A stretch of DNA of 64,000 bases from assembly GCA_948567375.1 (NCBI GenBank), contig OX419757.1:70873836-70937835 (forward strand), written 5' to 3'. Every line of letters starts with the position of its first letter. Position 1 is the stretch's first letter. The DNA is from Lunularia cruciata. Its lineage: Eukaryota > Streptophyta > Marchantiopsida > Lunulariales > Lunulariaceae. Made by a program: the position numbers and the translations under genes. The notes under the pieces are model-generated. The model had not been told where the DNA came from. It saw nothing but the letters and a program-made list of their open reading frames with translations, and searched no databases. Shown here one piece after another: positions 1 through 62,759 of this stretch.

Positions 1-338
1 TCCTAAAGACCCAATCCTCTACAAACACATGTATGTCCCTAACATGGCCATCCAGAAATCACCAAGTGAATAGGCCCATGTCTCTCTAGGTCATGCGGCC
101 CCAGTAAGGAAATTTCTCCTGGTAGGGCCTTCAGGTAACCTCTGATTGCTGATATCGGTAATAACTCTGGATACCGATAGGCCAAGTGTGCCACATGATG
201 TGGAGAGACTCGCCTAGCAGTCTCATCTCTCTCTACATACAAGTACCTTTGTACTCGGATACCCACCTGTAACACCGTAGCTAGTCCGTTGCTGATCCCA
301 CCAAACAACTTCAATAGGCATATCCTCTCTACTGGATA
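1..338 (-). pseudogene. C5-cytosine DNA methyltransferase domain (motifs I-IV), DNMT3/DRM-like, inside the retroelement polyprotein
   Basis: Encodes the first half of a cytosine-5 methyltransferase fold. Motif I (SAM binding) reads LKLFGGISNG at 314-285, followed by a GI-V-RYLYVE segment matching the motif II region, where the acidic residue contacts SAM. Motif IV reads LVISGWPC at about 65-42 and holds the catalytic Pro-Cys. The codon after the Cys is TAG (39-41), where Gln is usual in PCQ motifs, and another TAG follows at 3-5. Motifs VI, VIII, IX and X would lie left of the window. Spacing and the wording G(I/V)xVxRY and GPxxLVIxG resemble DNMT3 and DRM more than bacterial Dcm. It is in the same frame as gag and protease, so it was part of one polyprotein rather than a separate gene. 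Activity of the source element is inferred, not shown. Confidence 0.72.
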
Positions 339-884
339 CTACCAAGCAATGAGTGTGGTATCCAGAGGTGTCAAAGCAATCACCTCTGGAGGCTCATCCT
401 CACACTCATCTCCTGATGGTACGAAGGCTCCACTCCAAGCCTGCTGCACCAACTGATCTGCATGTTGTTGCAATGCCTCCTCTAAACTCCACAATGGAAC
501 ATCCAAGGTGGATAGAACAATCCCACTTGTACTCCAAAGCCGAGTGATCTCCTCTGGTACTGGAGTATCCTCTGCATGGGCATTCTACTCCAACAAGTCA
601 CCAAGCCACGTAACTGCACCACTGAAAGCTAAAATGGATGTTGCCATGGTCCCGGACTGTAGTGAGCCAAGACTACCACTACTGAAGCGTACTGGTAGGC
701 GACATACCCGTCCCTCACCAGACTGCCAACCAGGTCTATAAGAGGTTATCTCCTCCCAATAGTCAATGCTAAAACCCATGGGGTATAACACTGCTCCCCC
801 AACTAGCATATCATATGACTCAGCTATCGTCGCAATAGCCTAAGCTCTCACCACCAAGCTATTAGTCGGATAACCAGGCTGAAC
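339..884 (-). pseudogene. Polyprotein linker between protease and methyltransferase
   Basis: Same frame as the protease upstream and the methyltransferase downstream, interrupted by TAG at 840-842, 585-587 and 339-341. The first part (about 840-640) reads as the C-terminal side of the retropepsin-like fold, with a YDMLVGGAVLYPMGF segment that suits the strand after the second glycine turn and a Trp-rich stretch. The second part (about 585-345) is acidic and helical-looking and has no domain I recognise. In DRM enzymes methyltransferase motifs VI-X precede motif I, but I see no such motifs here, which favours DNMT3-like motif order. Confidence 0.5.
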
Positions 885-1751
885 CTAGACAACAAGCTCT
901 CCACGTGTGACATACTGTGTCGAACCACCACCTAGAGATGTTTGGATCTGAAATGGACACCTCTCCACATTGGTCTTCCATAACTCCAGACCGACAACTG
1001 CAGCTTTCCCCAACATAAGGGGTTGCGCACCAGAGTCTAACAAGACTCTCTGTGGTGTATAGACCTTCCCTGAAGGTCCCACCAAACAAAAAATCCCCCT
1101 CTGGTTATCCAATAGGACAACACTAGGTGTAAACTGTGCTCTCTCAAAGGCCGGTCTAGCTGGAAACTCCTCCAGTCTAGCCGTTGTTGCCTGCCATAAA
1201 CCACTGGTCACTGAACGGATCCCATGCTCCTCAACCAAGCTAGCTCCACTACCAACCACCTCTGCTCTAGTAGTAGGAACTGCACCATCCCTACTCTCAC
1301 ACAACGTGGCAGCCAACCGGAACATTGGGGTTGGGTCAACTCCCAATGTAAACATGTCACTGGCTGAAAACAAAGGATGCCGCATAATCAGCTGAGCCGC
1401 CCCCAACATCATGCTAGACTCAATGTGTGTAGTAGTAGGTGGCTGACTAGCATGTACTCCATCATGTACTCCATCACCACCTACCACACCTACATTGGGA
1501 CGTCTAGGAACCATGGATGTTGTCTATAATGCCTCAGATAGTGTGAAAGACTGGGGAAGTCTAACCTGTCTCCCAACCTCTCCTCTCTGTGGGTCCAACT
1601 CCACTGATGCTCCTCTAGGCTCTGGAGCACGTACTGCACTCCTAGTCACTGCTGTAGATGCATCCACCTGTGCTGCTCCGCACATGAAGTCCAAACCATC
1701 TCTATCACCAGCATATGAGGTGGAAGCCTCAGCACCCGAATCTGATCTCCT
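885..1751 (-). pseudogene. Retroviral-type aspartic protease region of G1
   Basis: The diagnostic segment is VLLDSGAQPLMLGKA at roughly 1068-1020: the DSG triad of a retropepsin in hydrophobic context, followed by a typical helix. The catalytic Asp, Ser and Gly are intact, unlike in the two Gypsy copies at the right end. The N-terminal part (1751-1100) is a low-complexity linker without recognised motifs. One internal TAG lies at 1524-1526, and the frame closes with TAG at 885-887. It would cleave the Gag-Pol polyprotein. It continues in frame from the zinc-knuckle block and into the methyltransferase linker. Confidence 0.65.
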
Positions 1752-2189
1752 CTAAGCAATAGCCATACTAGCCAATCTCTGCTCCAATTGCTCAATCCGA
1801 GTAGCCATAGTTGTGTCAGAAGTAAGGGTAGGTACTACACCCCTACTAGGTGTAGATCCTCTACCACCTCGTCCTCCATGAATTGGAGCTCCTCTACTAC
1901 CTACCATAGCAGCCCTACCACTCCGTAACTCCGAGTGTAGGTCAAAACACCGGTCACTAGTGTGACCAAATCTGTAGTAGTGCTCACACTGCCTCTGTGC
2001 TGGCTGTGATGCACCAGAGGTATCAGGTCCGTTGCCTTGAGTACACTCTCTCCGATGGTGAGGTCCACCACAAGTCCAACAAGCAACACCACCACTCACT
2101 GGCTGCTGCTGACCCAAAAATGAGGGTAAGGGTCTAACTCCACTAGACCCTCCACTCGCTCCATAGGATCTGGGCTGTCCACCCTGTCC
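1752..2189 (-). pseudogene. Gag nucleocapsid: two zinc knuckles, RGG-like tract and coiled-coil end (G1)
   Basis: The first knuckle reads CWTCGGPHHRREC, a slightly irregular CCHC. The second reads CEHYYRFGHTSDRC: its spacing is the standard C-x2-C-x4-H-x4-C, but the second Cys is Tyr (codon TAC at 1977-1979), one G-to-A step from TGC. A Gly/Arg-rich stretch (GGRGGRGSTPSRG) and a short heptad-like tail (RIEQLEQRLASMA) follow. Such blocks bind the genomic RNA in the virus-like particle. A TGA at 2190-2192 separates this block from the gag core in the same frame. Confidence 0.7.
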
Positions 2190-2192
2190 TCA

Positions 2193-3103
2193 AAAACCAA
2201 CTAGGCGTGGTGCACTCTGCTGCACTCTAGAAGAAGTCACAGCCGTGGATGAGGTCTCCCTACCAAATCTAGATGTCACCACTCTCTCCTCCACCATATT
2301 GAGCTCAATACGCTCAGCCAAACCAAAGACTATTGCCAAAGTGGGCAAAGTAGCCTGCAACAGCGTAGCATCACGAACTCTACATTGCAACTCCTTGTCC
2401 AGTATCACATACCAAAACTGGACTGCCTGGGCCTCAATAACTCCCTAAGTGAAACTGATCAGCCACCTCATGTGAGTGTATGCCTCGCGTAGGCTCTCTC
2501 CAGCCTTCCACTAGAACTCTTGCAAGCTCCTCAGCTTGTCAGTCCGCACTCCTTGGTAGTTCTGCCTCAAATACAGGAAGAACTCCACCATGGGGTTAAA
2601 CCCCGGTACCACACCACCTCCTGCAACGGTACCTCCAATCGTAGTAGCACTATCTCCAGCTAGTGCACCTCCACTAGCTCCACCTACACTACTCGAGCTA
2701 GAACTCGTAGGTACATCCGATCTACTCCTGGCCACCAAGTCTGAAGTGATGGAGACATAGTGTGGAGACCAATACTGTCTCCATAACTCAATCTCCTCCA
2801 AATGAGCTCTCGTGAACTCATGGTAGTCATCCATCGGCGGACACTCTAGATGCTGAAACAACCCCTTCCATGCCATGAAGGGTGTGAACAAAGTCGGGTT
2901 CCGCATCTGCTGTAGATCACACCAACTATCAAACTCCTGGATGAAGTCATCCAACTCAATGGTACCCACTGTACCAGAATAACGCCTAGGGCCCCATAAA
3001 TCTTGTCCATGTCCCACAACAACGGTGCGGACACACCAAGTGCACTCTCAACTGAATCAGCTCCTATGTCAAACTCCAACTCAGAGTCAATCTCCTCTCT
3101 CAT
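2193..3103 (-). pseudogene. Gag capsid-like core of G1
   Basis: Retrotransposon-gag-like protein. IELDDFIQEFDSW at about 2965 begins the helical core, a tryptophan-rich helix follows (AWKGLFQHLECPP), and after a long Ser/Gly linker the second half contains FFLYLRQNYQGVRTDKLRSLQEF-type sequence (split here) and an AQAVQFWYVILDKELQ helix. TAG codons at 2511-2513 and 2445-2447 break the frame. The likely start is ATG at 3101-3103, opening an acidic N-terminus in the neighbouring frame; this joins the core only if a small indel sits near 2990-3010. That join is inferred. Confidence 0.6.
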
Positions 3104-3631
3104 TGGGACCTGAGATACAAGCTGATACTGAGCACCACTCCGAGTATACCCACTGCATACTGCAGGGCTAACTCCTCTGGAATCTCCAAAGAACTCCGTC
3201 GTGACAAAGTAGCCGCAACAACAAACCCAAACCACCAACTGCAACCGCAAGTCGCAACCGCAAGTACCCCACCAAGTGCCAACAGCACCACGTGCCAATA
3301 CTAATTAAGCACCACCCACTAATGTAACTCTAACCAAGATAACTACACTAGGGGAAAGGGCAACCTGTAACCTGCCATCATAACACGCACTCTCACGGTC
3401 TGTAGGTCATCACTTCCTGCCTCACCAGAGAGAAACAAAGGTAGTCTGACTAGTCATCACTCCAGCCTCACTACCGAGAGCACACCACAGCACCAATGCT
3501 CAAAATTCAGGGCACCTCACACATACGTGGTGCACAAACAAGAAGCAGAGAATGGAGGGATCCAATCACAAGAAATCTAAACAAAAACCCTCTATCTCAT
3601 AACACAACACGGGACTGACTCTGCCACCATT
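3104..3631 (-). other. 5' leader and tRNA primer-binding site of G1
   Basis: Non-coding leader between LTR and gag. On the minus strand the 11 bases at 3629-3619 read TGGTGGCAGAG, two mismatches from the TGGTATCAGAG initiator-tRNA-Met primer site common in plant LTR elements, and they start two bases inside the LTR edge. The remainder shows no open frame worth calling. Confidence 0.6.
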
Positions 3632-4984
3632 TGGCATTTGACGTAAGAGAAGTTTGTATCTAAGTCCTAAGCTACCAGGATCACCAAGAATGGGATCAAA
3701 CTGCCTCTCCTAGCCAAAGCTACATGTGTATAGATAATAGTGGTACAATCACTAAGACAACAAGTGAGGGTGGACCAGTTGGCTAGGGCACCAGTCTAGG
3801 AACAAGAGATCTAGGGGTCAAACCCTGTTGCGCACAATCTAGCAGGAAAGGCAAATTTTGCCAACCAATGACCAAGATCTACTCTAAACTAGCTAGCCTC
3901 ACGCCAGCTTGCTGGCCCTTTTAGGCCTTCATAGCCCACAGTCCTATGCCTCGAAGCCTCTAAATGCCAAAATTCAGCCAAATGATGCCTTTCTTGTTGC
4001 CACTTTGAACCTCCTCCAAAATTGGTGAAACTTCTCCAAATCTGTGAAACTCCTCCAAACTAGCGAAACTCCTCCAAATCTGGCCAAAATCTGATGTAAA
4101 TCCCAACCAAAATCTGATGTAAAATTTGACATAAACCCTAAAGATGGCTGTCCGCCAAATCCCCCGCTAACTTTCCACTCGAGCCAAATTGACAACACGG
4201 GTTTTTCCAAATCACAAATTCATGAGAAGAGCTTCCTAACTCCACCTTCAATTTGACTTTCTGAGCACAACTCATAGCAAATTGGTCTTGCCTTCACCTC
4301 CTGAGCTCAAAATCACAACCACTACTCGAAATTTGCTCCTTCTTTGCTCAAAATTTGGCCAGCGCTTCCACACACCGTCTGCCTAACTGCCAAATCTGCA
4401 TCAATCGATTGAGCTTATGCACACTAGAGAAACATAGAACTTGAATCAAGCTACCAACAATCCACCAAGCTTGGAGATACCACCAACACTCAAAGTTCCT
4501 ACACCCGATTTCCCCCTGACTTCACTTCTCTGATGTAATCAGATTGCTTGCCACTCTCAACTCAACTCAACTCAGATCATTACTTGATCTGTCACTCTAT
4601 AAACTGCCAAGAACTGGGCACTGATTACAGTCAAGCCACACCCACTCAAGCATAGAGAATCCTTGTGACACTCGCCGGCCTCTGTCCACTATAGCCAAGA
4701 ACTCAAAGGCTCAACATCAGAGAAGTGAGCTCTTTGGAGCGCACTTCAAAACTATACCCCCTGGACTCGAGCTAGCTTTGAAACCCTAATGGTCCCACTG
4801 ACGGCACACTCAACGGTGCAAACGGTGCAAAGTGATGGTGGGCCTCACCGTGGAGTCAGTACCCCAAACACAAAATCTAACCGTCAGAAAGTAGTCTCTG
4901 AGAAACTGCTAGAATAACTCTAACTACTATCACTGGAACTCCAATGTCCGAGCATCTAGATGCGGCACTACAAATGGCGTGACA
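3632..4984 (-). repeat. 5' LTR of G1 (about 1.35 kb)
   Basis: On the minus strand it starts TGTCACGCC (4984) and ends with CA at 3632, next to the primer site. The 400 bases at its 5' (U3) end are recognisably repeated, in diverged form and the same orientation, at about 33550-33945. Inside, at about 4012-4083, a 19-23 bp unit (ctccaaa...gaaact) is repeated about four times. No open frame in it is credible. Copia sequence abuts it at 4985. Confidence 0.65.
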
Positions 4985-6374
4985 TGATCTTCATGAGATA
5001 GCTAATGGGTTTTGTGAAGAAAAGCCAAGAGGATATGGTTTGTAGGTTGTTGAAATCCTTATATGGATTGAAGCAAGCTCCTAGATAATGGAACAAACTG
5101 TTCAATGATTTCATGAGGTCACAAGGGTTTAAAAGGAGTGTGTTTGATCCCTGTGTATACATGAAAAGGTGAGTAATGAAGTCTTTGGCTTCATTATTTT
5201 GGTACTTTATTTGGATGACATGCTTATTGTAGCTAGGGACATATATGATGTTGATAAGCTCAAAGCTCTCTTTAGTTCCAAATTTAGAATGAAAGATCTT
5301 GGTACAACAAGGAGGATTTTGGGGATGGAAATCCAACAAAACATGGAGGATGGAAAGTTTTGGTTAACCCAAGGGAAGTATGCTAGAAAGGTACTTGCAA
5401 GATTTAACATGGAGAATTTGCAAGTTTGTGAGTACTTCATTAGCTCTTCACTTCAAGCTTTCATCAGCCCTTTGTCCAACAAATGTCATGGAGAAAGGTT
5501 TGATGTCCAACATCCCTTATGACAAGGTAGTGGGAAGTCTCATGTTTTTGATGATTTGCATTAGGCCAGACATTGCTCTAGCTATGGGCAAGACTAGTAG
5601 ATACATGTCAAATCCAAGGAAGATACATTGGGAAGATGTGGAGTGGATCCTCAGATATCTCAAGGGTACATTGGATTTTGGCCTTCTGTTTGATGCTAAA
5701 TCTTACAGTGCCAAATCACTTATTGGTTATGTAGATGCTGACTATGGACAAGATTTAGATGGGAGGAAATCTAAGACTGGGTATGTGTTCACATTTGGAG
5801 GTGGATGCATAAGTTGGAGATCTACACTGCAGAAGTGCACAGCTCAGTCTCCTACAAAAGCTGAGTATGTAGCAACAACAAAAGCAATGAAGGAAGCTAT
5901 CTGGTTGGACAGGCTTATAACAGAGATGAGATTGACTCATGACATTGTGAGTGTAGACTGTGATAGCCAAAGTGCTTTACATCTAGCTATGAATCAGGTG
6001 ATCGACAGTAAAGTGAAGCACATCAACATCAGGTATCATTTTCTTAGACAGTTTTGTCTGATAATATGATTGAGTTAGTCAAGATTGATGGTAAACTCAA
6101 TCCTATTGATGCTTTACAAAAGTGATATCTTTGGAAAGTTTTTTGAGACATCGTGTCAAACTGCAGGTGTTGCATATGGGCACAAGTAGAGTAGATTAGC
6201 AATTGTTTTATCTTTATATATGTTCTTACTCTACTATGTGTAGGCTATGGCTTAGTTCTAGTTAACTCTAGTTTTTAGAGGAACCTATGTTAGGCCTCCC
6301 TCTAGGACTTCCCGCAGAGTAACCATATAGGTAATAGAGGTTAAGGACCCCAAGATATGAGTCAAGGGGGAGAT
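4985..6374 (+). pseudogene. Copia-type pol relic: reverse transcriptase end plus RNase H
   Basis: Begins in the reverse transcriptase: LLKSLYGLKQAPR at about 5050, where the next codon is TAA instead of the usual Gln or Lys. The polymerase motif YLDDM is at 5207-5221, followed by KFRMKDLG and a GMEIQQ segment. A frameshift near 5440-5510 leads to the connection domain (RPDIALAMGKTSRYMSNP) and RNase H, which keeps YVDADYG, AEYVA and DCDSQSA carrying the acidic residues, and KHINIRYHFLR near the end. Order and wording are classic Ty1/Copia. Gag, protease and integrase are absent: the copy starts at the edge of the G1 LTR. A polypurine tract (aagggggaga, 6364-6373) closes the internal region. 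Confidence 0.85.
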
Positions 6375-7938: not shown

Positions 7939-9003
7939 GTGGTTGCTGATAGGCCGGTTTTGGAGACTTATGTGACAGAGGTGGAGGGAGGATCCTTTTC
8001 TCTCCAGGTGTTATTGCGGCAGACGAGAGATAGTCTATCTTCACGAGCACGAGAGGGTTTTCCACCGTTTGCTTCACTATCGTCAGATTGGACTAGAGGT
8101 CTACAGTCTTCCTTGATGGAGTGACAGTGTGAGCATACGCTACATTCTCTCTTAGTTGACTCGTCCATTCCTCAGGCTACTAGAGCACGTCTACGCTCTT
8201 GCTCCGGCAAGGGTGCAGGCTCGTGGATCCTAGCTCGACCATGCATTAGGGCTTTCCGACTCGCACCGGCTACTTTCTCTACAGCGATGAGGTTTCGCCT
8301 AGGTTTGGTCCACCCATCTGCATCTTCACTACTCACTTGTGAGTGTGGTTCTACACTAGATGCAGCGGCGGTCCACATGACACGGTGTCCTTTTGGAGGA
8401 CAGAGGATAGCTACCCATGATGCCATTAGAGACATAGTGTTTGCTATGGCACGAGAGAGTGGATACTTGGCTTGGAGGGAGCGTTCGTATGCGTTGCAGA
8501 CGACATGTGTCAGGGCAGACTTATACTTGGTCCGAGATGATCAGGTGACAGTAGCGGATGTCGTGGTGACGGACCCTACGCGAGATACAGTTTTGGAGGG
8601 AGTGATTACCCATCCCCCTGGATGGGCGGCGAGTGCAGCAGCAGGTCGCAAGGTCTCCAAGTACAGGGGCATGCAGCGAGGTCACCTCTTTGTTCCTCTA
8701 GCCTTGGAGTTATATGGAGCGATGGACACGGCATTTGACACATTTGTCAGGGAGTGCACGAGGGCTTATCATGTTAGGCGGCAGGGGGTACCACTCTCAC
8801 TCTCATACTTTGTAGCTTACTTTAGACAGCGTGTATCCATTGCTCTACAGAGGGCAGTGGCTGGTGCAATCCATAGGAGAGCAATCACATTAGGTGATGT
8901 TTCTTCGGATGCTCCAGTTGTGTGTAGACCGTACGACTTGCATAGCTCGGATATCTTAGGTGCGGTAGGGCAGATTTCTCATACAGACTCTATTGGGGCT
9001 TAG
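7939..9003 (+). pseudogene. LINE ORF C-terminus: zinc motif and restriction-like endonuclease
   Basis: One frame runs 7939-9003 with a single stop, TGA at 8122-8124. The part before the stop continues the region after the reverse transcriptase; the part after it holds CSGKGAGSW, then RFRLGLVHPSASS and a zinc-binding CECG...H...C motif (from 8338; C-x1-C-x9-H-x3-C), then RIATHDAIRD. A likely PD-(D/E)xK nuclease follows, with RADLYL, VADVVVTDP and a later KVSKY carrying candidate acidic and Lys residues. A zinc motif followed by such a nuclease is the architecture of R2-like LINEs, which lack an APE endonuclease; it would nick target DNA for target-primed reverse transcription. No ATG at the front is expected, as the copy is truncated. 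Confidence 0.7.
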
Positions 9004-9041
9004 CCCCATGTTACCTTTTTTGTCTCTCCCTTGTACGGCTT

Positions 9042-9058
9042 GATGGGGTCTTCCCATC
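9042..9058 (+). other. LINE 3'-UTR stem-loop
   Basis: GATGGG-GTCTT-CCCATC forms a perfect 6-bp stem with a 5-base loop, 38 bases after the stop codon. The same hairpin, intact or nearly so, is present in the other 3' ends at about 10010, 11798, 15388, 26066, 30227 and 42299. In other LINEs such 3' hairpins are bound by the reverse transcriptase; that role is inferred here. Confidence 0.55.
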
Positions 9059-9094
9059 CTTCATTTTTCCTACGCGGTCGCCTTTTTTCTCTTT

Positions 9095-9177: not shown

Positions 9178-9439
9178 ATCCAAGTACTATTCATATTTTC
9201 ATGTCGTTGGAATTAGATGCCAAGTAAGACTCGTGCGCCACATCAAGCTAGAAAAGGTATTGATAAGTATTCCTGCCAACCTTGGGGCGTCATTAAATGA
9301 AGAAAGCCGAACACAAGAAGGTTGGGGAGAACAAATAGACTACATTAAATGTAGTCTCTTTGGTAAAGTTAGAGTACTGTTAGGTCCATTCTAGTGCATT
9401 ACGGCCCTGGCACGGAAAGCAAGGACGAGCGCACGAGGT

Positions 9440-9525
9440 CGGTGCCATCAATGTGTGATAATGTAAAGGCGGAGCGAATCCAGAAAGATTGTCCAAAGTT
9501 CGGATTGTTCTCTGCAACTCGAGAA

Positions 9526-9573
<48 letters not shown>

Positions 9574-9797
9574 CAAGTACTCGGGCCCTGTACAAACTGC
9601 CCGTCAAACCATGGGAACTGGTTTCGCCCGAAGCAGCCGACCAAGGATCACCCATTACTCGGGGTGCTCCACGCCGTTGTTGAGTGTGGTCTACTAGAGT
9701 CATTGGTGATCTTATGTAGGAGACCAAGGTTGGGCCATTGACTGAGGTTAAGTCGTAACAAGGTAGCTGCAGGGGAACCTGTGGCTGGATTGACTCC
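9440..9797 (+). pseudogene. rrn18: Nuclear fragment of mitochondrial small-subunit (18S) rRNA, 3' end (NUMT)
   Basis: About 360 bases match the 3' end of plant mitochondrial rrn18. Landmarks are the helix containing gttggaatcgctagtaatcg (9533 on), a degraded decoding region (ctgtacaaactgcccgtcaa, where the functional form has cac-actgcccgtcac), aagtcgtaacaaggtagc (9752 on), and the gene end at ggggaacctgtggctggatt. The 5' three quarters of the gene are missing, and decoding-site bases that do not vary in working rRNAs are changed, so this is a dead transfer. Bacterial, plastid and nuclear 18S rRNA fit worse: the segment gttctctgcaactcgagaac is typical of plant mitochondria. Confidence 0.85.
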
Positions 9798-9961
9798 TTC
9801 TTTTTCTAATTCCATAAAAAGTGGCAAGCCGCAGAAAAGGAAGAAAAGAATTTGTCTTTACGAAAGAAAGCTTTCAATTTACAATCTCGAATACAATGAC
9901 ACAGCTTAAAAAAGTGATAAGAAAATAAATGACGAAGGTTCCAGAATAACATGTCTATCTG

Positions 9962-11569: not shown

Positions 11570-11641
11570 GGGCATTTGGTCTAGTGGTATGATTCTTGCT
11601 TTGGGTGCAAGAGGCCGCGAGTTCGATTCTCGCAATGCCCC
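11570..11641 (+). tRNA. tRNA-Pro (UGG)
   Basis: A complete 72-base cloverleaf. The acceptor stem GGGCATT pairs with AATGCCC, with C as the discriminator base. The A box is TGGTCTAGTGG; the anticodon stem CTTGC/GCAAG (11595-11599/11607-11611) carries the loop TTTGGGT with anticodon TGG at 11602-11604. The B box is GAGTTCGATTCTC, and TTTT follows at 11644-11647 as a Pol III terminator. There is no intron and no encoded CCA, as expected for a nuclear plant gene. It looks functional and reads proline CCA codons, with wobble to others. Confidence 0.95.
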
Positions 11642-21355: not shown

Positions 21356-24300
21356 TCAAGCCCGCATTGCATGCTCCCTCAGTTCGTTGGCACCATGGGC
21401 GAAATGACACCTGTCTCCAAAAGTACAAGTACCTTGCGCGTAGTTCTCACACATCTTGGTCTTGTAGTTGTGTGAGCCGAATCCTGCGGGCTTGACAGGC
21501 AGGTTATCTCGATGCATCAACACCTGACGCACCATTGTGCTGGCTTGTTTAATTTGCTCAAAAGATCCCTCCATTTCCACGTTCCTGAGAGTATGATCTG
21601 ATTCATGTTCCCGGATGGACAGCTTGGCTCCAGTCAGACGACAAATCTGCTTGGCGTTCACACCACCCTTTCCAATGATAGCACCCGCCAAAGAGGCCTC
21701 AATGCTAATTTTCGCGGTGGATGAGGCACCAAAAGATGCAGCTGCGGCTAATCCGGGAGGTGTTGGCTCTCGTAACCCGTAAGGTCTTCCCCCATCTCTC
21801 CCACCATTTCCACCCCCACCACCTCCGCCGCCTCCGCCATTACCACCAAATCTCCCCTCAGACGCGAACATTCCTCCGCCACCCGCTCCGCCTCCGGAGT
21901 TCTGCCTGTATCCACTACCGGAGGATGATGGTGCAGGGCCACGAGCCCTCGGAAACTCCATGATAGGCTCACGCTCAGGAGGGTTGTTTGAAGTATTCGA
22001 CTTACGCAGTTCTTTCTCCCCATGGGCAAAGTGACATTTATCGCCAAACCGGCATCCCTCAGGAGTGTCATACCGGTTACAAAGGCGAGTCTTGAATCCA
22101 CCCAGGTTGGCTCCCTGATCAGATGGGGATAAGGGAGCTGGAATACCGGCAGGACCAACACCGCCAAGAACCTTCCGCACACCACCCCCGCCTCCACCAC
22201 CACCTCCTCCTCCTCCACTGCCTCCACCACCACTACCACCTCCACCTCCACCACTCATACCGCTACTTGTACCCATGTTGGATAGTGGGGAGATACCCAA
22301 AGAGGCAACTCCGCCGGGAACATAGTGGAGGAAGTGACAGCCTTCCCCATAAGGGCAGCCAGATGTGCTGCAGGTCATAATAATCGCACATAATCAGATT
22401 GAAGGAAAAAAACACAAACATTGCGTAGAGAGCGCATGACAGCTCAAAAGGGACAGATGTCTTCGAAGGGACGAGATACTCATCAAGCATTCAGATTCAT
22501 GGAGATGGTCCAAACGAACCTGAAAAACTTGGTACAGGGTTTCGTGCGGTTGGCGTTCCCGGATCCGCCAGCCGAAAAATCCTTATCTGCCAATAAGAAG
22601 TGATTCGCATTCAGTCCCTTCCTAAAACGAAGCCTAGAGTCTAAACGCGATCTCCACTTCTTATTGTCTACCAACCGAGAGACCTTTAGCAGGAGGGGAT
22701 AACCATTTAGATAAAGCCGACCCTCAGGTCACCAACATTACGATTTCAGATAACCCGTTTACTACAATCGACCTATGCCCCAAGACGGTGAGAATATAAA
22801 AGGTTATACACATGGGATGGGATATATATGACGTGTAAGTGACATGACATAACGTGTAAGTGCCAAGACGAGACTGCGGTATACTGATCGTGACTACATT
22901 GGCTTCTGAGAATTGATGGAGCAGAACATGTGAATCTAAGGCGGGGTTATGTAAAGTTTCGGCGCTGCATACATTCACATGCTACAAACCTCCATTTCTT
23001 TAAGCGCTTCAACAACAGAACCTGGAACCGTAAGCATATCCGAGACATTGATCCTAAAAGAGTCCTAACGACTGAAAAGGCCCTGCCTTACTTACAGTTC
23101 TAGTCGAGCAAGAAGTCACGAAGTAGTAGTTGGCTGTAACTGGATCGAACCTATACCTACAGAAGAAACTTTGGCTGTCGGATTTGCAATCTTGTGAAGC
23201 GTGATGATATAACAACGCGACAAAACAGATTACATCTCGTCTGGACACCAAAATGGCACATTGATCCATGTGAAACCAACGGTAAAGTTTCAGTTTCATA
23301 AATCTTGCGCCAACAGCGGAGGGACCAGCACCAGTAAGGAGAGATTAAATGCTAAGTTCTTAAGCAAGTCACGGTGGATTATCTCCACAGATCGTTCACG
23401 GTGCAAAAGCAAAAGGATAGCGAGGTACGCTGAAGAAAACTTCTCAGGCCAAACAATGATCTGACGAACAACTAGGACAACTTGGGGACGGGACCATTAG
23501 GACCAGAGGGTGGACAGAAATATCAGTTCTGTTTAGGCCTAGGGGATGTAAACGGGAGGTCGGCATTACACAGGGGCCACGGTGAAAAGAAATGCGTGAT
23601 AACATTCCCAACGGTGACTACTGCAACAACACGGCACTCGCGAGTGGTACAGATCAAGACAAGGAAAGTTCGAGTGACGTATGCGCACTCAAATAAACAG
23701 ATAAAAAAAGGAAGGTACAGTAGAGGTTAATGACCAGACTTTAAGCATGACATAAAACCGTCCTGATGCCGACGAGTAACTGGCCTTCTCATTATTGGAA
23801 TCTTACACCACTTGCTCTGTACATTTTAGGCTCTAGGATAAATAATAAATAAATAAATGGTCCAACCAACTATGAACGGATCATACACGCACAAGTTGTG
23901 CACGCTCAGATGTGCAACAACCATATAACTCTCGTAACCACTCTCTCATCTCCCAGACACTCTCATCGGATCGATTGACCATTACGACGCTCGTGCACTG
24001 GTTTTCTATTCTCTACACTACGCAGCACAAAAATGGTCGCTACAACAAGCTAGCTGACAAAACATGTCACTGAGGGACTCAGGCGATAACAAGAGAAGTT
24101 TATCTTCAGAATAAGACTTCGACGAACCAGTTTATACTCAACTTGTCACGAGAAAAAATAACTAGAACACGACATGCAGTTTCCACCCTGTAACACCTAA
24201 AACTCTCAATGCAATGCACTAACGCCTCGAGGCTTCGATGTTCTGCTCTGCCACTAGACATGACAACGGCGAGGTTTCACACGCGAAATACCTGGGAGCA

Positions 24301-26009: not shown

Positions 26010-26114
26010 GGATCTTAATCTTATAGAAGAAGAAGGACGACCACGTAGAAAAAAAGAAGGATGGGAAGACCCCATCAAGCGGTACAAGGGAGAGATGAAA
26101 AAGGTAAAATGGAG

Positions 26115-27240
26115 CTAAGCCCTAATAGAGTCTATATGAGAGATATGCCCCACTGCACCTAAGATATCTGAGCTATGCAAGTCATGTGGTCTACAAACAA
26201 CTGGAGCATCCGAAGAAGCATCACCTAGTGTAATTGTTCTCCTATGGATTGCACCAGCCATTGGCCTTTGTAGAGCAATGGACACACGCTGTCTAAAATA
26301 TGCTACAAAGTATAAAAGTGAGGATGGTACCCCCTGGCACCTATCATGATAAGCTCTCGTGCACTCCTTGACAAATGTGTCAAATGTTGTGTCCATCGTT
26401 CCATATAACTCCAAGGCTAGAGGAACAAAGAGGTGGCCTCGCTGCATGCCCCTATACTTGGAGACCTTGCGACCTGCTACTATGCTTGTCGCCCATCAGG
26501 GGGATGGGTAATCACTCCCTCCGAGACTATATCTCACGTAGGGTATGTAATCGTGACATCTGCTATCATCACCTGATCATCTTGGACCAAGTATAAGTTT
26601 GTCTTGACATGTGTCGTTTGCAAAGCATACAAATGCTCTCTCCAAGCCAAGTATTCACTCTCTCTTGCCATAGCAAACACAATGTCTCTAATAGCATCAT
26701 GGGTAGCTATCCTCTGTCCTCCAAAAGGACACCGTGTCATATGGACCACTGCTGCATCTAGTGTAGAACCACACTCACAAGAGAGTAAAGAAGATGCAGA
26801 TGTGTGGACCAAACCTAGGACACCGTGTCATATGGACCACTGCTGCATCTAGTGTAGAACCACACTCACAAGTGAGTAAAGAAGATGCAGATGTGTGGAC
26901 CAAACCTATGCAAAATCTCATTGTTACAGAGAAAGTAGTTGGTGCAGGCTGAAATGACCTAATGCATAGTCAAGCTAAGATCCAACAGCCTGCACCCTTG
27001 CTAAAGCAAGAGCGGAGATGTACTCTCGTAGCTTGAGGAATGGACGAGTCAACTAAGAGAGAACGTAGTGTATGCTTACACTATCACTCCATCAAGGACA
27101 ACTATAAACCTCTATTCCAATCTAATGATAGTGAAGCAAAAGATGGAAAGTCCTCTTGTGCCCGTGGTGATAGACTATCTCTCTCTGCCGCAATAACATA
27201 TGGAGAGAAAAGGATCTCTCCTCCGCCTCTATCACATAAG
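26115..27240 (-). pseudogene. L2: zinc motif and restriction-like endonuclease part
   Basis: Colinear with L1 7966-9003. CECGSTLDAAVVHMTRC and RIATHDAIRD are readable near 26770-26700, and the C-terminal block MQRGHLFVPLALELYG at 26447 runs to the stop at 26115. Differences include the 91-bp duplication at 26727-26908, which shifts the frame, and several point changes. The TGA that interrupts L1 is also here, at 27086-27084, followed at once by a TAG. Confidence 0.75.
26727..26908 (-). repeat. 91-bp tandem duplication inside L2
   Basis: Two units, 26727-26817 and 26818-26908, both beginning ggacaccgtgtcatatgg, differ at one or two bases. L1 has one copy of this segment. As 91 is not a multiple of three, the duplication breaks the zinc-motif frame. 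Confidence 0.85.
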
Positions 27241-27981
27241 TGTAATACCAAGAGCTAGCCATATGATCTAGACGTGAAATTTGGTTTGGTAACATCTAGA
27301 ATGATGTTATACATGATGGTCACACTAGATCAGATAGAAGTATCATCAAAAGAGAACTTCTACTAATAGGGCAGAAACCAAAATAGACTTGAAAACCTTA
27401 GAACCAATAGCTAGACATATGATTTAAAGGTGAGAATTGGTTTGGTAACATCTGGAAGGATGTTACACATGATGGACTAAACAGATCAGAAAGAAGTATC
27501 ACCAAAAGTGGACTTCTACTAATAGAGTAGGAACCAAAATATGCCTGAAATCTTTGAAGGCAATTTCAAAGGCCTAAACGGATGAATTGGGCCTTGAAAA
27601 TGTGCACAATCCCCACCCCCCAAACAAAAGATAGGTTGGCCTTCCCTCCCCCTATTTTGTCTTGTTGAGAGATTTCCAATGGTACCTTACCCACGTGATT
27701 TTGAGATTCCTACAAGAAGATTCTCTAAAAGATTCATTCCAATCAAAGCTTATTTGACCAACCAGATAGGACCTAGACCAACATGTCACCCATCCAAGTA
27801 AGTAATCCAAGGGTGAAGCTTGCTGACATGTCATCTATCTCTGTGCCTAATCCTATGGTGGAGCTTCATTGGAGGAGATCCTCTTTGTCTATATAATAAA
27901 GAGAAGGTGCTCTTTTGGGGCATCAAATGATTGAGTGTGAAATTTGTATTTTCTCTCTTCTCTTGTCCTTGGAGTATTACA
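27241..27981 (+). mobile_element. Solo LTR (TGTAATAC family) nested in L2
   Basis: Starts TGTAATAC and ends GTATTACA, perfect 8-bp inverted ends. It is flanked by ataag (27236-27240) and ataaa (27982-27986), a 5-bp target duplication with one change; removing the insert restores the L1-like sequence cataa-tctccaa-accggcctatca. Within it a 156-bp unit is duplicated (27253-27408 and 27409-27564). A TATA-like tatataataaa lies near 27892. Related copies are at 42947-43502 and from 36628. Confidence 0.85.
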
Positions 27982-41639: not shown

Positions 41640-42345
41640 ATAGTGAAGTCTAGCTAGGTACAAAAGGAGGACCATGATGCTATTAGAGACCTAATGTTTG
41701 TTAAGGCGGGAGAGTGGATATTTAGCTTAGAAGGAATGTTAGTATATTTTGCAAATGACACGAGTCAACATAGATTTATACTTGGACCAAAATGATCAAA
41801 TGACAATTATGGATGTCATGGTTACAAACCCTATGCAAGATACTGTCTTGGAATGAGTGATTACCCATCCTCTAGATGTGCGGCGAGCGCAACAGCAAGT
41901 CGTAAGGTCTCCAAGGAAAGAGGCATGCAATGAGATCACCTCTTTGTTCCTCTTGCCTTGGAGTTATATGGAGCAATGGACATGGTGTTTGACACATTTG
42001 TCACGGAGTGCACGAGAGCTTATCATGTTAAGCGCCAGGGGGTAACATTTCACTCTCATACTTTGTAGCATATTTTAGACAACGTATGTCCATTGCTCTA
42101 TAAAGGGCATTGACTGGTGCAATCCATAAAAGGAGAGCAATCACATTAGGTGATCCTTCTTTGAATGCTCCAATTATATGTAGACCACACGACTTACATA
42201 GCTCGGATATCTTAGGTGTAGTGGGGTAGATTTCTCATATAGACTCTATTGAGGCTTGGCCCCATTTTACCTTTTTCATCTCTCCCTTGTACAGCTTGAT
42301 GGGGCCTTCCCATACTTCATTTTTTCTATGCAGTCATTTTTTCGA
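41640..42345 (+). mobile_element. LINE copy L3: 5'-truncated, decayed
   Basis: Aligns with L1 from the HDAIRD codons (ccatgatgctattagagac, 41670) to the 3' UTR (hairpin gatggggccttcccatac at 42298). Colinear but with frameshifts and stops, e.g. in the nuclease region near 41850-41930. A minus-strand partner copy is L2. Confidence 0.8.
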
Positions 42346-54841: not shown

Positions 54842-57776
54842 AGGCTACAACAGAGCAATTAGATTAGCGGAGTGTGAAACAAGTTATGTTTTTGAGTCTG
54901 ATTTTGCCTTCCTGCAAGGACCGACGCCTAATTGTAAGTAAATTCAGTGTCCACTATTCTTCCCTTCCCCACAAGACGATGAAGATCGACTTGAGCTTTT
55001 CTCTCCATGATTGCATCTCTCTTCTTCGTGACTTCTGAATTCTTTCAAGTGATCGGAATGGCCCTTGTTATTTGATTACCCGGTGACATTCATTGTCCCA
55101 TCTACTTCTCCTCTAACCATTCCAAGAAATGCATCCCCAGGAACGGCACAACAAAGTACGCGACAATCCAATGTCCCCACGCACTAATGATAAAATGATA
55201 AGAACAATTTGTTCCCACGGGAGTGAGGCTTGGAAACGACTAGATTTGAAGAAGTGACACAATGTCATGGTTCGTTTATTGTTACCTATTCAACCTCGTG
55301 GGTAGGAACTACTTCTCGAAAAGTGTAGACTCACCCACAGCGGTGCTCTATAGAAAAGGAAATTAAAATTACTTTCAATAAAGTTCTAGTCCAAATGAGA
55401 GTTCTAGTCCAAATGTGCTCTTCAATTCATGCCAAAGGCCTCTTCTCCCTGAAAATCCTTTTTACCCCAAGTCTAGTTCCACCTTGAAGGTCGTTTCACC
55501 CCAAAGATCACTCTGATGATTTCATGTCACTCTGATGATTTCATTGATTATGTTCCAAAAGGCACAACACAAAAAAATCATGACATTGACGGTCTACTTG
55601 GCTTCTATTTAGTGGTACTTCCAATGTTCCCAAAACCCTTCTATGCATCATCTTGTATCTTCATAAGTCTAGGGATATCTTGTCCTAGAATGATGCAAAT
55701 TCATTGATAGGTTTCAAGCACACATTACAACTATAATGTTCTTCACCTCTACTCAAAACAACATACAATAAAGAATGAAAAGTATACTCAATTCAATACT
55801 AGGATCAGGGAGATCCTTGCGATCAAAATTTAAATTATGTAGGGTGAAAAAATTGGATTGAAAATCATATATATATAAATATAAATAAAATTTTTTTCCT
55901 TACCTCTTGATGAAGAGATTCAATAGCTAAGGGATGTTGGAATTCTTCTAATTACACTTACATCACTCATTGCTAATCCTATCTGATCTTTACTAACTGA
56001 ATTAAGAGCTACCTATGCAACTTGAGATCACTCATAATGGTTCTGTGTCACTTTCTCAGTTGAATTTAAATTTAATTCACTTGTCAAAGATCTTTGGCTT
56101 ACAAAGTTGTCATGTTGAAAGTATTCTATGCCAAAGGTCTTCCTATTTGAAGGTGTCTTTTAGGCCAAAGGTATGTAAAACTATGAAAGTCTTTGACACC
56201 AAACCTTTCTTGTATGTCAAAGATATTCTATACTTAACATATTTTTATTATTTACATTTTGCCAAGTGTTCTCTTTGTCCTAAAGACTTAGTGTAAAGAA
56301 CTACCTTTGTCTCTACAAAGTCTAATGATAATTTTTACCATGCTCTTGTAATCCTCAAAATTCATGAGCATGATATAGATGGACTCATTATTTTTGCCAT
56401 ATCATCCCTCAATTGCTCTAAGAGTTGGTTGAGCCATTTGTGAATATAGAATTTAGCTTCTAGGATGTGTACTTGGGTCTTTAATTCCCTCAAATTGATC
56501 CATTGAGCTTGCTCTTGAACCAACTACTCAACAAGCTCTACCAATCAATCTCATGTTCATTCCATATGCGTCAAGATTTTGGTCTTCTCTCTAGTTAGCT
56601 ACCTTTGGATCTGCTTCAGCTCTGCTAGCACTTCTTATCAAATTGCCATACAATCACTTTCTTGTCCTTTTCCTTCTCCTCCAACTTTGCGGTGAGTTTT
56701 GTGAGTTGAACCTTGGCAATTCTCTATACTTCTTGGTGTTACATATCTATGGCGACCATTACTCCTTTTATCTTCTTGATCTCTCCTCACATCAATCCCT
56801 CATCTTCAGCCTTAAATTGCTTATCCACCTCCTGTTGATGCTTGGATTCTTCTCAAATAAGGGAATGGCTCCAAGTCCAAAAGAAGATAATATCTTGATT
56901 GCATAGTTAAGAAGGCATAGCAAAGAAACATCAACTCCCAAGGTTGTGGGAGTTAAAGCAGGGGCAAGTACTTTGGGACATGGGGACCAAAGCCAACCCA
57001 ACACCAATGTACCTAATGAAGGGAGACCTCCAACTACAAGGAAGGGAGACCCTCCAAAGGTCTATACAAATGACCAACACAAAGTCTTTATACACATATA
57101 AAATATACAAAAATACTTAATGCATTGAGCTACCTTTACAACTCATTTGGATGGGTCAACTATCTGATTTGAGACATCAGTGACTACCTTCCACATAGAA
57201 GCTAACACGTCTTGGAATTGGTATGCTTCATAAGTTGATCCATCAGCTTGCCTAGTTGTTAGTTGAAGTACACCTTTGCATCTAATGCATAGATCTTAGA
57301 CTTCAACTCCCTTGTTTTTGTTTGGTGAGTGCAAGTCAAGATTGACTTTGGAACATGCATGATGGTCTACCATGCTGCTCTTTTGACAGTCATGAGGATC
57401 CACATCCTCTCTACTTCCATGGCTTCTTGGATAGACTTTATCTCAACTTCCTATTGCACTTGTATACATGGAGTTTTTTCTAATCTGCCGATTCCTCAAC
57501 CATCTCGATTAAGTCTACAATTCAACATTTGGCCATCCCCTCGAAAATTGATAGGCCAACTCTACTTGTGAAGCCCAAAGTTGTACAATGGTCACTTCCT
57601 CCTTCAACGTAGTGATTTCTTCATTTTGAGCATACATTTATTCCTCATGTGCCTTCTTGAAATGCATTAATGCTTGATTATGCTGGTTAGTTGTTATCTC
57701 CATCACACTGATTTGGGTTTTTCCATTTGCAACTCCGGCTTGGGTCTCTCCCAACATTCCTTCTCATCTTTCTTCT
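54842..57776. other. Mostly decayed sequence before the Gypsy pair
   Basis: Short tandem copies of gttctagtccaaatg (55383) and tcactctgatgatttca (55508). From 55.9 kb AT-rich with only short frames. No gene or element assigned. Confidence 0.4.
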
Positions 57777-58174
57777 TGTAACAATATGGAGTTTAACATT
57801 GTAGTTAGTAAGGCTAATGAAGTAGAGAATAAGCCAAATTAGCCCAGAATATTCTAGAAGCATCTACGAAGCTTCTTGGGAAGCTTCACGACTAATTTAA
57901 CTTGCACCCCAAGCAGGTAGCTTCTAAAAGCTTCTAACTAGCTTAGCTTATGAGCCAAGCAGGCAGATTTTAGAAGAAAATGTTAGTTAACTTGGCTTGC
58001 ACTCTAAGAAAGCGGCTCAAGGAAACTTCTTGAGAAGTTTCTCAAGGTCCTTGTATGCTACCTATAAATACCAAAGCCAAAGCTCATGCTAGGGATTCAG
58101 AGTTTTTCCACATTCAAGTGTTCCAATATGAGTTTCCATTCTCCTATTTCTCTCCTTGGTCTCAATCTATTACA
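57777..58174 (+). repeat. 5' LTR of G2A
   Basis: 398 bp, TG...CA ends. The centre carries many agcttctagaagctt palindromes. Similar to the LTR at 61081-61490 but with many differences, and to the solo LTR at 36868-37375. Confidence 0.85.
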
Positions 58175-58175
58175 T

Positions 58176-58186
58176 TGGTATCAGAG
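58176..58186 (+). other. Primer-binding site of G2A
   Basis: TGGTATCAGAG, one base after the LTR, complementary to the 3' end of initiator tRNA-Met as in many plant LTR elements. Confidence 0.85.
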
Positions 58187-58445
58187 TAGGAATGGGATGG
58201 ATGGAATTTATGGACCACAAAATCCACTTCCACCAAACCATTAGGATTTTTGTGTCCAAGTACTACCAAAGTATTGTTTCACACAATTCATCAACTCACA
58301 CTTTGGACATGATTTTCTGCATATGATCACCATATATGAGGAAACCTTGGTGCTTCCGATGGTAACTTATGGAGAATGACAGACGTGCTACTTCTATCTA
58401 TTTATAAATTAGATAGATTACGGGTGGCGTGATAGAGTAGCAACC

Positions 58446-59335
58446 ATGGTGGCAATGCCTGATATTATCCTTGCTATGCAACAACAAATTGAGCACCTTA
58501 CTAGATTGTTGGATGAACAAGATCTTCAATGATAAGAGCACATAGAGAGAGTATCAATTTGAGAAGGAAAAGAGAAAATCCAATTCCCTAAACCCAAGGT
58601 GTTTGAAGGCAAGAATCTCTTGGGTGTAGTGGAGAATTTTTTGTTTAATTGTGAATGTTATTTTGAAGCTACCAATCTACAAGACAAGCAAAAACAGATT
58701 CTTTTGGCTTCTAGCCAATTGGATGGAGTAGCAAAGCTATGGTGGAGATTCCGAATGGAGCAAGCTGAACAACAAATTGTTACACCAATCTTGACATGGG
58801 CAGAATTCAAGAGTGCAATAATTAATTGGTTCCAAGCTTTAAATGCCACACGAGCTACACGGGATAGGTTGGCAAAATTGAAACAGATTTGCTCTATAAG
58901 AAGTTACATCATGCAATTCCAGAACACCATCATGCAAATTCCAAATATCCTAAAAGGTGAAGCTTTGGATCAATTTGTGAGGGGCTTGAAGCTAAGAACC
59001 AAATTAGAGGTAACCATGCGAGAGCCACAATACTTGGAGGAAGCCATGTGGTTGGCCAAACATTTTGATTCCTTAGTTGCAAGAACTTGGTCTTGACCTT
59101 GACCTCAACAAAACCTACCAATACACTACACACGGGTGGAAGAGCCGGCACCAATGGAGATTGATGCAATTCAACAAAGACCACTTGGCATTGCAGATAG
59201 AGAGAAACTAAGACAAAATGGTGGTTATTTTTATTGTCGCCAATTGGGACATTGCATTGCTGAATGTCCACTCAAGAATAGGCGACCTCAACAAGTTGCC
59301 CAAATGGAGTTTATGGAGCAAAATGATTAGGGAAA
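58446..59335 (+). pseudogene. G2A gag with zinc knuckle
   Basis: A single frame from ATG 58446 (MVAMPDIILAMQQQIEHL), broken by TGA-TAA near 58530, another TGA near 58560, and TGA codons after 59096. The gag core has LASSQLDGVAKLWWRF, WAEFKSAIINWF and GEALDQFVRGLKLRTKLEV, classic Gypsy capsid helices. The knuckle reads YFYCRQLGHCIAEC: the first Cys of CCHC has become Tyr (59226-59228), while the sister copy G2B keeps it. Confidence 0.85.
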
Positions 59336-59399
59336 CGAGGAGTCTCAATAGGAGATTTTGAGCCGCCTACAAGGAGCTCGATTAGTTACAATGGGATTG

Positions 59400-59780
59400 A
59401 AGGCTTGACCTATGCAAGTTTGCTTCACTTGCAAGGTACGATATCTAATCAGGGTTGTAGGATTTTGGAAGATTTTGGAAGTTTAGAGAATTGCATGTCT
59501 ATGCAAGTAGCAAAGGAATTGAGTATTTCTATCAAACCAGTAATTAGAAGTAGATTGATGATGGCGGATGGTATAATGGGTTCTGGATTCCATACCTCGC
59601 ATCTTGTTACCTTCAAGATTGGAAAAGAGTATTTAGAGTCTATGAACTTGTAGTGGCACCTCTATACTATGATATCATCCTAGATCTACCTTTGCTTGAA
59701 CGTCATAAGGTTCAATTTAATTGGAACCAATGACAAATTCAAGTACAACACCAAGGTAGGAATTTCCAATGAGATTGTTT
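59400..59780 (+). pseudogene. G2A aspartic protease relic
   Basis: MSMQVAKELSISIKPV and TFKIGKEYLES are retropepsin-like. The catalytic triad position reads EDFGS, where VDSGS is expected, so the Ser is Phe. A stop follows at about 59651. Confidence 0.7.
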
Positions 59781-59811
59781 GGCACCTTTGAGTAAGAATA
59801 GTTAGTTCTAA

Positions 59812-59991
59812 GATGGGAAGTTTGTCAAGAAGGTAACCATAGAGCAAGTCTTGAAGGGAGATGAGTCCCAAGATGGGAAGTTTGCCAAGAAGGCAACCAC
59901 GGAACAAGCTTTGAAGAGAGATGAGTCCTTAGATGGGAAGTTTGTGAGTGTGGCAACCATAGAGTAAGCTTTGGATGAAGATAAGTTTGTA
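59812..59991 (+). repeat. Three 60-bp (20-residue) tandem repeats, G2A
   Basis: Units start at 59812, 59872 and 59932, each opening DGKF and reading on as (V/A)KK(V/A)T-E-LK-DES. The period is exactly 60 bases, so the frame is kept. It lies between protease and reverse transcriptase. The same array is in G2B. Confidence 0.85.
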
Positions 59992-60059
59992 TTTGCGGTG
60001 TGGATCAAGCCAATTGCACAAGGAAAATCTGAGGAGGGCCAAGAGCCTCATCAAGCAAT

Positions 60060-61080: not shown

Positions 61081-61490
61081 TGTAACAATATGGAGTTTAG
61101 CGGCATAGTTAGTAAGGCTAACAAAGTAGAGAATAAGCCAAATTAGCCTAAAATATTCTACAAGCTTCTTAGGAAGCTTCCCAACTAGTTAACTTGTGCT
61201 CCAAGTAGGTAGCTTCTAGAAGCTTCTAGAAGCTTCTAACTAGCTTAACTTGTATGCCAAGTAGGCAGCTTCTAGAAGGAAGCTTCTTGAGAAGCTTCCT
61301 AGTTAACTTGGTTTGCACTCTAACAAAGTGGCTCGGGGAAGCTTCTTGAGACGCTTCTCAAGGGCTTTGTATGCTACCTATAAATACCAAAGCCAAAGCT
61401 CATGTTAGGCATTTGGAGCTTTCTCTCATTCAAGTGTCCCAATGTGAGTTTCCATTCTCCTATTTCTCTCCTCGGTCTTGGTCTTTTACA
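61081..61490 (+). repeat. 5' LTR of G2B
   Basis: 410 bp, TGTAACAATATGG to TTTTACA. Followed by primer site and gag, so it acts as a 5' LTR of G2B, not as the 3' LTR of G2A. Confidence 0.8.
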
Positions 61491-62660: not shown

Positions 62661-62759
62661 CAATAGGAGATTTCAAGCCGCCTATTAGGAGCTTGATTAG
62701 TTCCAATGGGATTGAAGGATTGACCTATGCAAGTTTGCTTCACTTGCAAGGTACAATAT

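Follow-up and report, generated by a model that had tools for sequence, protein, structure and literature searches.

The left edge of a 64,000-nucleotide stretch of Lunularia cruciata DNA (the window: contig C6 70873836-70937835 of a 565.8 Mb assembly in 74 contigs) probably runs through an old and decayed copy of a Ty3/Gypsy-type retrotransposon that is present in high copy number and, as judged by sequence comparison, codes for a DNMT3-like C5-cytosine methyltransferase (MTase). The element measures about 9.5 kb, and the window copy, a broken member of an abundant family, runs from window position 4984 to base 4469 of L009, the 10 kb around the left window edge in which window base 1 is base 9000. 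From end to end it comprises a terminal repeat (A1), gag, zinc knuckles, protease, MTase, the stop and hexamer UAG CAGCCA, reverse transcriptase (RT), RNase H, an H2C2/rve integrase, a PHD finger and the repeat cluster B1-GC-A2-B2 (Table 1). The identity of these parts is very nearly certain.

Table 1. Parts of the element and its insertion site (window positions unless L009 is given)
Feature	Position	Strand	Basis or remark
MTase domain, first half, DNMT3-like	1..317	-	motifs I and IV; sequence and profile matches
MTase motif I, LLKLFGGISNGLA	279-317	-	
MTase motif IV, HLVISGWPC (Pro-Cys)	42-68	-	
MTase domain, second half (motifs VI, VIII, IX, X)	L009 8336-8965, left of window	same orientation as window half	
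Aspartic protease (LLDSGAQPLMLG ... AESYDMLVGGAVLYPMGF)	771..1049	-	motif; aligns with relatives' protease region
Protease motif LLDSGAQ (LLDSGAQPLMLG)	1002-1049	-	
Two CCHC-type zinc knuckles	1947..2081 (1947-1988, 2043-2081)	-	motif
gag region, stop-broken in window copy	2277..3017 (e.g. 2931-2993)	-	alignment to Marchantia P0072 and others
PBS-like 20-mer	3610..3629	-	primer site of the earlier note; about 900 bp beyond A1, inside element
Left terminal repeat A1, 449 bp, begins TGTCACGCC	4536..4984	-	repeat comparison with other end
Target-site duplication ATCA (minus-strand reading)	4985..4988	.	repeated at element's other end
Older broken Copia pol, insertion target	4985..6069	+	RVT_2 E 3.7e-14 at 5169-5519
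RT of window copy	L009 7753-7019	same orientation as MTase	
RNase H of window copy	L009 7018-6749		first 90 of 140 residues
Integrase of window copy	L009 6606-6007	same orientation as MTase	
PHD finger of window copy	L009 5449-5294	same orientation as MTase	
Partners B1-GC-A2-B2	L009 4469-5123, left of window		

The methyltransferase domain and its family

The first half of the MTase lies at window 1-338 on the minus strand. Motifs I and IV of a C5-methyltransferase are present and share a reading frame with gag, the pair of zinc knuckles and the protease, as the earlier note had claimed. A run of 99 residues is uninterrupted from position 338 down to 42 and is bounded by in-frame stops at 339-341 and 39-41, two of those that break the frame of the window copy. 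Compared with 5.8 billion proteins, this 99-residue piece gives 68 matches (best E 1.8e-36, identity 59-77%); given these, its MTase resemblance is not a product of chance. Searched as a single sequence, the piece matches no Pfam family at E<=1, one irrelevant NCBIfam model (E 0.046) and DNMT3A with no better than E 0.011. A profile built from the piece and 12 of the 68 relatives places DNMT3A first at 1.6e-6, with the best DRM at 3e-5 and HhaI at 0.027, and PF00145 is matched in 7 of 13 members scanned singly (the window piece and relatives). The PDB ranking of the element MTase likewise puts DNMT3A/B first and DRM, HhaI, HaeIII and DNMT2 lower.

The other half of the domain had been expected beyond the window edge and is found there: motifs VI-X lie in the same orientation and are 87% identical to those of copy L012. 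Further left, RT and integrase follow, again as the earlier note had proposed to look for, together with RNase H and the PHD finger, all in the orientation of the MTase. In the first frame of L012, motifs I, IV, VI, VIII, IX and X (names given by the analyst from sequence) stand unrearranged at residues 1004, 1088, 1136, 1176, 1271 and 1298. The rearranged order typical of DRM, with VI-X before I-IV, is absent from the element MTase and present in the host DRM (L069); DNMT3 has the same motif order as the element, and motif VIII of DNMT3A is alike (AHRARYFWGN). By sequence and motif order, the element domain is DNMT3-like. An alignment of 8 sequences shows no variation in the catalytic Cys, in Glu-Asn of motif VI or in His-Arg-x-Arg of motif VIII. 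A larger alignment, of 17 sequences, likewise has Cys and Glu-Asn throughout, with both kept across 16 relatives at 36-74% identity. Five relatives (P0100, P0101, P0105, P0114 and P0121) have Glu-Cys instead of Pro-Cys at motif IV and retain the catalytic Cys; Glu-Cys at this position is unusual for a C5-methyltransferase.

The coding plan is best read in less decayed copies. In L012, gag, knuckles, protease and MTase form one frame of 1428 codons ending TAG CAG CCA, in which Pfam names PF00145 alone. A second frame in the same phase, 1037 codons long in L016 (6316-9426), carries RVT_1 (1.2e-31), RT_RNaseH (2.2e-35), Integrase_H2C2 (7.1e-19), rve (3e-12) and PHD (6.5e-11), and the order of the four pol domains is the same in the window copy. 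The Pfam matches and domain order mark this as Ty3/Gypsy-type pol content, with atypical termini. The protease is named from its motif together with aspartyl-protease matches in relatives P0094 and P0121, which are weak and under the curated cut-offs; the window protease piece has no Pfam match of its own, even at E<=10, and Pfam gives no relevant family for the window gag and knuckle pieces.

A genome search with the 99 MTase residues finds at least 150 copies (150 scored of 8254 candidates), each matched along all 99 residues; apart from the window copy itself, the remaining 149 are, among the matches listed, 87-90% identical to the window MTase piece. Open frames in family copies reach 1448 aa. 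There are 2513 exact occurrences of the 22-base A/B repeat junction in the genome (backward control 0) and 953 of a 28-base pattern that surrounds the stop (control 0). By these two counts the genome contains roughly one thousand to a few thousand recognisable copies, and in some of them the open frames are long. When copies are selected by RT instead, the MTase is encoded at the same position in 20 of 20 (401 bases read; tblastn E 2e-71 or better, main piece), with PCQ readable in 19 and ENV in 19. These 20 were drawn from 150 listed of 42,720 candidates, a list that favours copies near L016, and at least two of them also appear in the MTase-search list.

The MTase is a feature of the family and not of one copy. 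The earlier note had asked for full copies genome-wide and had named copies lacking the domain as the sign of a local host-gene insertion; copies are abundant, and every RT-selected one keeps the domain. Insertion of a host MTase gene into one Gypsy copy is refuted, its probability being negligible, by this family-wide presence (to which at least 149 further copies found by the MTase itself can be added) and by relatives in other genera that carry it.

Split terminal repeats and the insertion site

The element is bounded by repeats that are split between its two ends. In L014, A1 (449 bp) opens the element and the other end consists of B1 (107 bp), GC, A2 and B2. The termini are TGTCACGCC and GCACGACA, TGTC..GACA, and thereby of TG..CA type. 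Thirty copies were compared, the window copy and 29 others from the MTase-search list: A1, B1, A2 and B2 are complete in 23 and the B1-A2-B2 tail is present in 25. In L050 and L066 the tail is present and the sequence extracted shows no A1; L040, L054 and L064 are partial copies. L010 and L042 carry A1 and a single B with an intact target-site duplication (TSD), the structure expected from B1 x B2 recombination, and resemble a split-repeat counterpart of the solo LTR.

Identical 4-bp flanks are found in 22 of the 25 copies with both ends, where shuffled pairs average 1.08. The exceptions are L026 (its fitted end is off, and on reading AAGA stands on both sides), L028 and L038. At the insertion site of the window copy, the Copia flanks read on as one pol, with stops, once one copy of the duplication is omitted; Pfam on 5401-6066 alone gives no match. 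The TG..CA ends and the 4-bp duplication are as an integrase would leave them.

The earlier note had described an LTR and a primer site. A 1344-bp "LTR" guessed from the PBS-like 20-mer was rejected: by blast, the opposite end of the element repeats no more than the first part of it, and this led to recognition of the A/B arrangement. A terminal repeat does exist, as described; because the repeats are split as A...B-A-B it is not an ordinary LTR, and the 20-mer, lying some 900 bp from A1, is not a canonical primer site. Paired LTRs with an adjacent PBS and PPT, by which Ty3/Gypsy elements are recognised, are not found. Among the features of DIRS elements, split direct repeats are present, a tyrosine recombinase and the lack of a TSD are not, and the rve integrase with its 4-bp duplication means that this is not a DIRS element.

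Within a copy, A1 and A2 differ at about 0.012 of non-CpG sites, compared with about 0.019 between copies (22 copies, window copy excluded). At the plant substitution rate of 7e-9 per site per year, this divergence corresponds, as a rough figure, to under a million years. A1 and A2 agree at the non-CpG diagnostic sites 78, 106, 429 and 431 in 22 of 22 copies, which suggests one template per round. Mismatches are found at sites 43, 52, 249, 265 and 364 in 4, 4, 3, 3 and 7 copies. In 5 copies one of A1/A2 lacks a 9-bp unit of the TTTGCACCG tandem, and in no copy do both lack it. These differences may be explained by later mutation and slippage, or may reflect mixed templates. No clear step in A1/A2 mismatch is seen along A, such as might arise if a DIRS-like route let the two pass on separately downstream of the transcript start.

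An ordinary LTR element, with A as the LTR and tRNA priming at the 20-mer, would account for the agreement of A1 and A2 at the four sites, as in LTRs made from one template, for the TG..CA ends and 4-bp TSD, and for the recovery of the 20-mer (<=3 mismatches) in 8 of 9 copies examined. However, the right end is B2 and not A, B1 precedes A2, and L014 has neither a TGG-type PBS next to A1 nor a purine tract next to A2. This makes an ordinary LTR element very improbable.

Under the preferred reading of a Ty3/Gypsy-type element with split repeats, the arrangement of these repeats suggests that the cDNA ends would be rebuilt on the internal B1-A2 junction. That junction joins both element ends (GACA GC TGTC) and could serve as an internal template for end completion. 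In the scheme proposed for DIRS, the cDNA ends are completed on an internal B-A junction. The integrase would then cut at the B1-A2 junction or at the linear ends. By analogy, we infer a combination of DIRS-like end completion with a DDE integrase. Split repeats combined with integrase-type insertion call for a mode of replication beyond the standard LTR scheme.

The rest of the window has features of its own. A host gene at 21356-22378 (-) encodes CCCH zinc fingers and a KH domain (Pfam zf-CCCH 4e-14, KH_1 1.9e-12). The 3' part of a bacterial-type, probably organellar, SSU rRNA at 9300-9800 (+) and a tRNA-Pro(TGG) at 11570-11641 (+) are perhaps organelle DNA moved to the nucleus. A repeat is present in three copies, 82-89% identical (7966-9090, 26025-27241 and 41672-42335), and its 238-aa ORF (8287-9003) matched no Pfam family. 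Two direct copies of about 2.9 kb, 83% identical, occupy 57772-60672 and 61075-64000.

The stop codon, constraint and possible functions

All 8 copies read at this point, among them the window copy, have TAG CAGCCA after the MTase (L018/L019 and L026 lie outside this set). With the stop left free and CAGCCA fixed, the first 100 listed of the 953 sites, all on contig C1, have 96 UAG, 3 UAA and 1 UAU. CARYYA after a stop is described as a readthrough motif that works far better with UAG or UGA than with UAA (PMC4132726). The RNA fold of the 128 bases from the stop onward is no better than that of shuffles (z 0.15). The conserved stop, phase and hexamer make readthrough of the UAG somewhat the likelier outcome. 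Most ribosomes would halt at the UAG and yield the MTase together with Gag and protease; the minority that pass it would go on to RT and integrase. A leaky-stop-like site behind the MTase means that the enzyme is probably made in Gag amounts.

Polymorphisms were counted at sites shared by at least 2 copies, CpG-type changes excluded. For the MTase there are 29 silent and 31 replacement changes (23 copies), a ratio 0.35 of neutral; the silent/replacement counts are 19/8 for the protease (22 copies), 9/2 for RT (8), 4/3 for gag (9), 3/0 for RNase H (8) and 0/1 for integrase (9). Singletons stand at 43/73, 15/45 and 8/14 for MTase, protease and RT. The MTase replacement count is below neutral expectation (p 6e-5) and does not clearly differ from that of its singletons (Fisher p 0.20); since the copies compared were all found via the MTase, the selection count is biased. 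Selection is stronger and more evident on RT and protease than on the MTase. A better case for constraint is made by the catalytic set, which is conserved in relatives down to 36% identity.

The 5' half of the window copy differs from L014 at 311 of 4968 aligned sites. Changes of the C-to-T type, their direction assumed from L014 as the younger copy, affect 58 of 296 CG sites (0.196), 77 of 556 CHG sites (0.138) and 47 of 1708 CHH sites (0.028); there are 60 transitions in the reverse direction and 69 transversions. CHG decay is the mark of host CMT-type methylation. The joint CG and CHG decay speaks for methylation by the host and not by the enzyme that the element encodes.

What the enzyme does for the element may be self-methylation of its cDNA. 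The MTase would be packaged with the element RNA and would methylate the new cDNA, probably at CG, before integration; the methylation might mark the cDNA as host-like, shield it, or fix the chromatin state of the new insertion. This would be a retroelement writing its own epigenetic mark on its DNA before genome entry. As the selected function, cDNA self-methylation is a possibility that falls somewhat short of even, and two other roles must be weighed against it.

The MTase might instead act in trans: freed with Gag and protease, it would methylate host or competing-element DNA, or would silence its own family and so limit damage to the host. Production in Gag amounts, if the stop works, would suit such a role, host-wide effects are discussed in the text of PMC5890265, and the window copy has lost far more C at CG and CHG than at CHH. 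Against this, the CHG part of the loss bears the host CMT-type mark, the host has its own DNMT3, DRM and CMT/MET1-type exons, and about a thousand or more closely similar copies exist, so self-limitation is not strong. Action in trans is unlikely, if within reach.

The domain might also owe its retention to binding of RNA, cDNA or S-adenosylmethionine, or to methylation of RNA, and not to DNA methylation. Constraint weaker than that on RT and Glu-Cys in place of Pro-Cys in several environmental relatives would be compatible with this, as would the behaviour of the algal element KnitGypsy-Dnmt3, which produced no methylation on yeast DNA, a result that its authors call inconclusive (de Mendoza et al. 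2018, PMC5890265). The invariance of Cys, Glu-Asn and His-Arg-x-Arg across 8 sequences, and of the first two across 17, speaks against this reading, and a binding or RNA role is improbable.

Relatives and known systems

Such elements occur among annotated proteins of liverworts and mosses. A long-protein search finds 23 relatives at E<=0.001, the named hosts being Marchantia polymorpha, Calypogeia fissa, Sphagnum troendelagicum and S. fallax. The full L012 domain finds 48 at E<=10, adding Closterium sp. NIES-53 (P0121) and many proteins without a host name. No vascular-plant host is named among the matches of three protein searches, in which most matches of the 99-residue piece lack a host name. 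Viral and GTDB contigs contain no relatives at the tblastn cut-off; two viral matches, at 28-42% identity, extend over part of the MTase domain.

The MTase occupies two positions among these proteins. It stands after the protease or before RT in the bryophytes, in P0094-P0097, in Closterium and in P0123 and P0125. Most of the remaining proteins without a host name have it behind RNase H or between RNase H and integrase. P0123 and P0125 have it near the protein start and form a deep pair in both trees described below. A PHD finger lies at the same end in many proteins of the RNase H-integrase group.

The Lunularia genome has MTases of its own: a DNMT3 (L068, perhaps a second in L071), a DRM (L069) and an exon of CMT/MET1 type (L070). 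These names rest on motifs, supplemented for L068 by PDB matches. PF00145 has 123 genome matches, of which most others look like element copies by profile range. An MTase tree was built from 47 of 57 proteins (those long enough), the L012 domain and three cellular rows, namely host DNMT3, host DRM and DNMT3C/A PDB pieces (two paralogues combined). The 48 element MTases fall on one side of a branch with support 100/99, apart from the three cellular references. The comparison envisaged in the earlier note thus yields one clade of element domains, with references limited to DNMT3, DRM and the DNMT3C/A pieces and no CMT or Dcm. Host DNMT3 and DRM and PDB DNMT3A share C5-MTase motifs with the element domains, which form a clade separate from them; in DRM the order is also rearranged.

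Within the MTase tree the MTase-before-RT group (25 rows) lies on one side of a branch (91/99), and an RT tree of 25 rows without outgroup splits the same two groups (94/89). The Closterium sequence and the P0123/P0125 pair sit on long branches of the MTase tree, for which the program warns of long branches meeting. The match between two positions and two groups in both trees, like these long branches, would also be expected if the MTase had been captured separately, once before RT (bryophytes, Closterium, some environmental proteins) and once between RNase H and integrase (environmental proteins). Yet the 48 element domains are nearer each other than to host DNMT3, the DNMT3C/A pieces or host DRM, and many second-group proteins share the PHD finger at the same end; separate captures seem rather improbable.

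A broader scheme can be offered tentatively, and taken whole it is less likely than not to hold in every part. One DNMT3-type capture before land plants would have founded a Gypsy lineage still present in charophytes and bryophytes, in which a leaky UAG follows an MTase made at Gag level, the integrase carries a PHD reader and the repeats are DIRS-like. Its cDNA would be completed on the B-A junction, methylated in the particle and inserted by the DDE integrase with 4-bp duplications.

Three published systems bear comparison. In tobacco mosaic virus and other plant viruses, UAG-CARYYA forms an in-frame stop between two products, according to the text of PMC4132726, and UAG CAGCCA fits that pattern; the likeness is limited to the stop and hexamer, known from sequence, and differs in the lack of a downstream RNA fold signal. 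SymbioDIRS-Dnmt3 of Symbiodinium, as described in the text of PMC5890265, resembles the Lunularia family in having a Dnmt3 domain in a retroelement polyprotein and A-coding-B-A-B repeats, and its Dnmt3 domains methylated CG de novo in yeast. It differs in using a tyrosine recombinase, not a DDE integrase, and in belonging to another retroelement order.

The closest counterpart is KnitGypsy-Dnmt3 of the charophyte Klebsormidium nitens, which the text of the same paper describes as having Gypsy coding content, DIRS-like repeats and Ka/Ks below 0.2 (de Mendoza et al. 2018, PMC5890265). Both combine Gypsy domains, an intronless and unrearranged Dnmt3-type domain within the polyprotein and DIRS-type repeats (Fig. 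4 legend of that paper); the Gypsy set, the Dnmt3-type domain and A/B-A-B repeats are all found here, as compared by description only, no Klebsormidium-named protein being among the matches of the long-protein and full-domain searches. The differences are several. The hosts of the relatives found here are bryophytes, the MTase is the last domain of the Gag-protease frame and is followed by a leaky-stop-like UAG, a PHD finger is present (the word PHD is absent from the text of PMC5890265), and about a thousand or more copies exist, whereas K. nitens is said in that text to have fewer than Symbiodinium. The earlier note had held that a Gypsy-type methyltransferase in a land plant would be notable; the land-plant case stands, whereas a Gypsy element with Dnmt3 was already published from Klebsormidium, according to the same text. 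No bryophyte report of such elements was found in the open-access literature, a scope with most subscription journals and bioRxiv outside it, and no earlier description was found of the leaky stop behind the MTase, the PHD finger, the 4-bp TSD with split repeats or the two MTase positions, the Klebsormidium element being known by the paper's text. Marchantia and Sphagnum are workable, so the question why a retroelement carries an enzyme of the plant silencing type becomes testable. By coding content, motif order and repeat structure, the Lunularia family represents a land-plant branch of an element type whose first description came from an alga.
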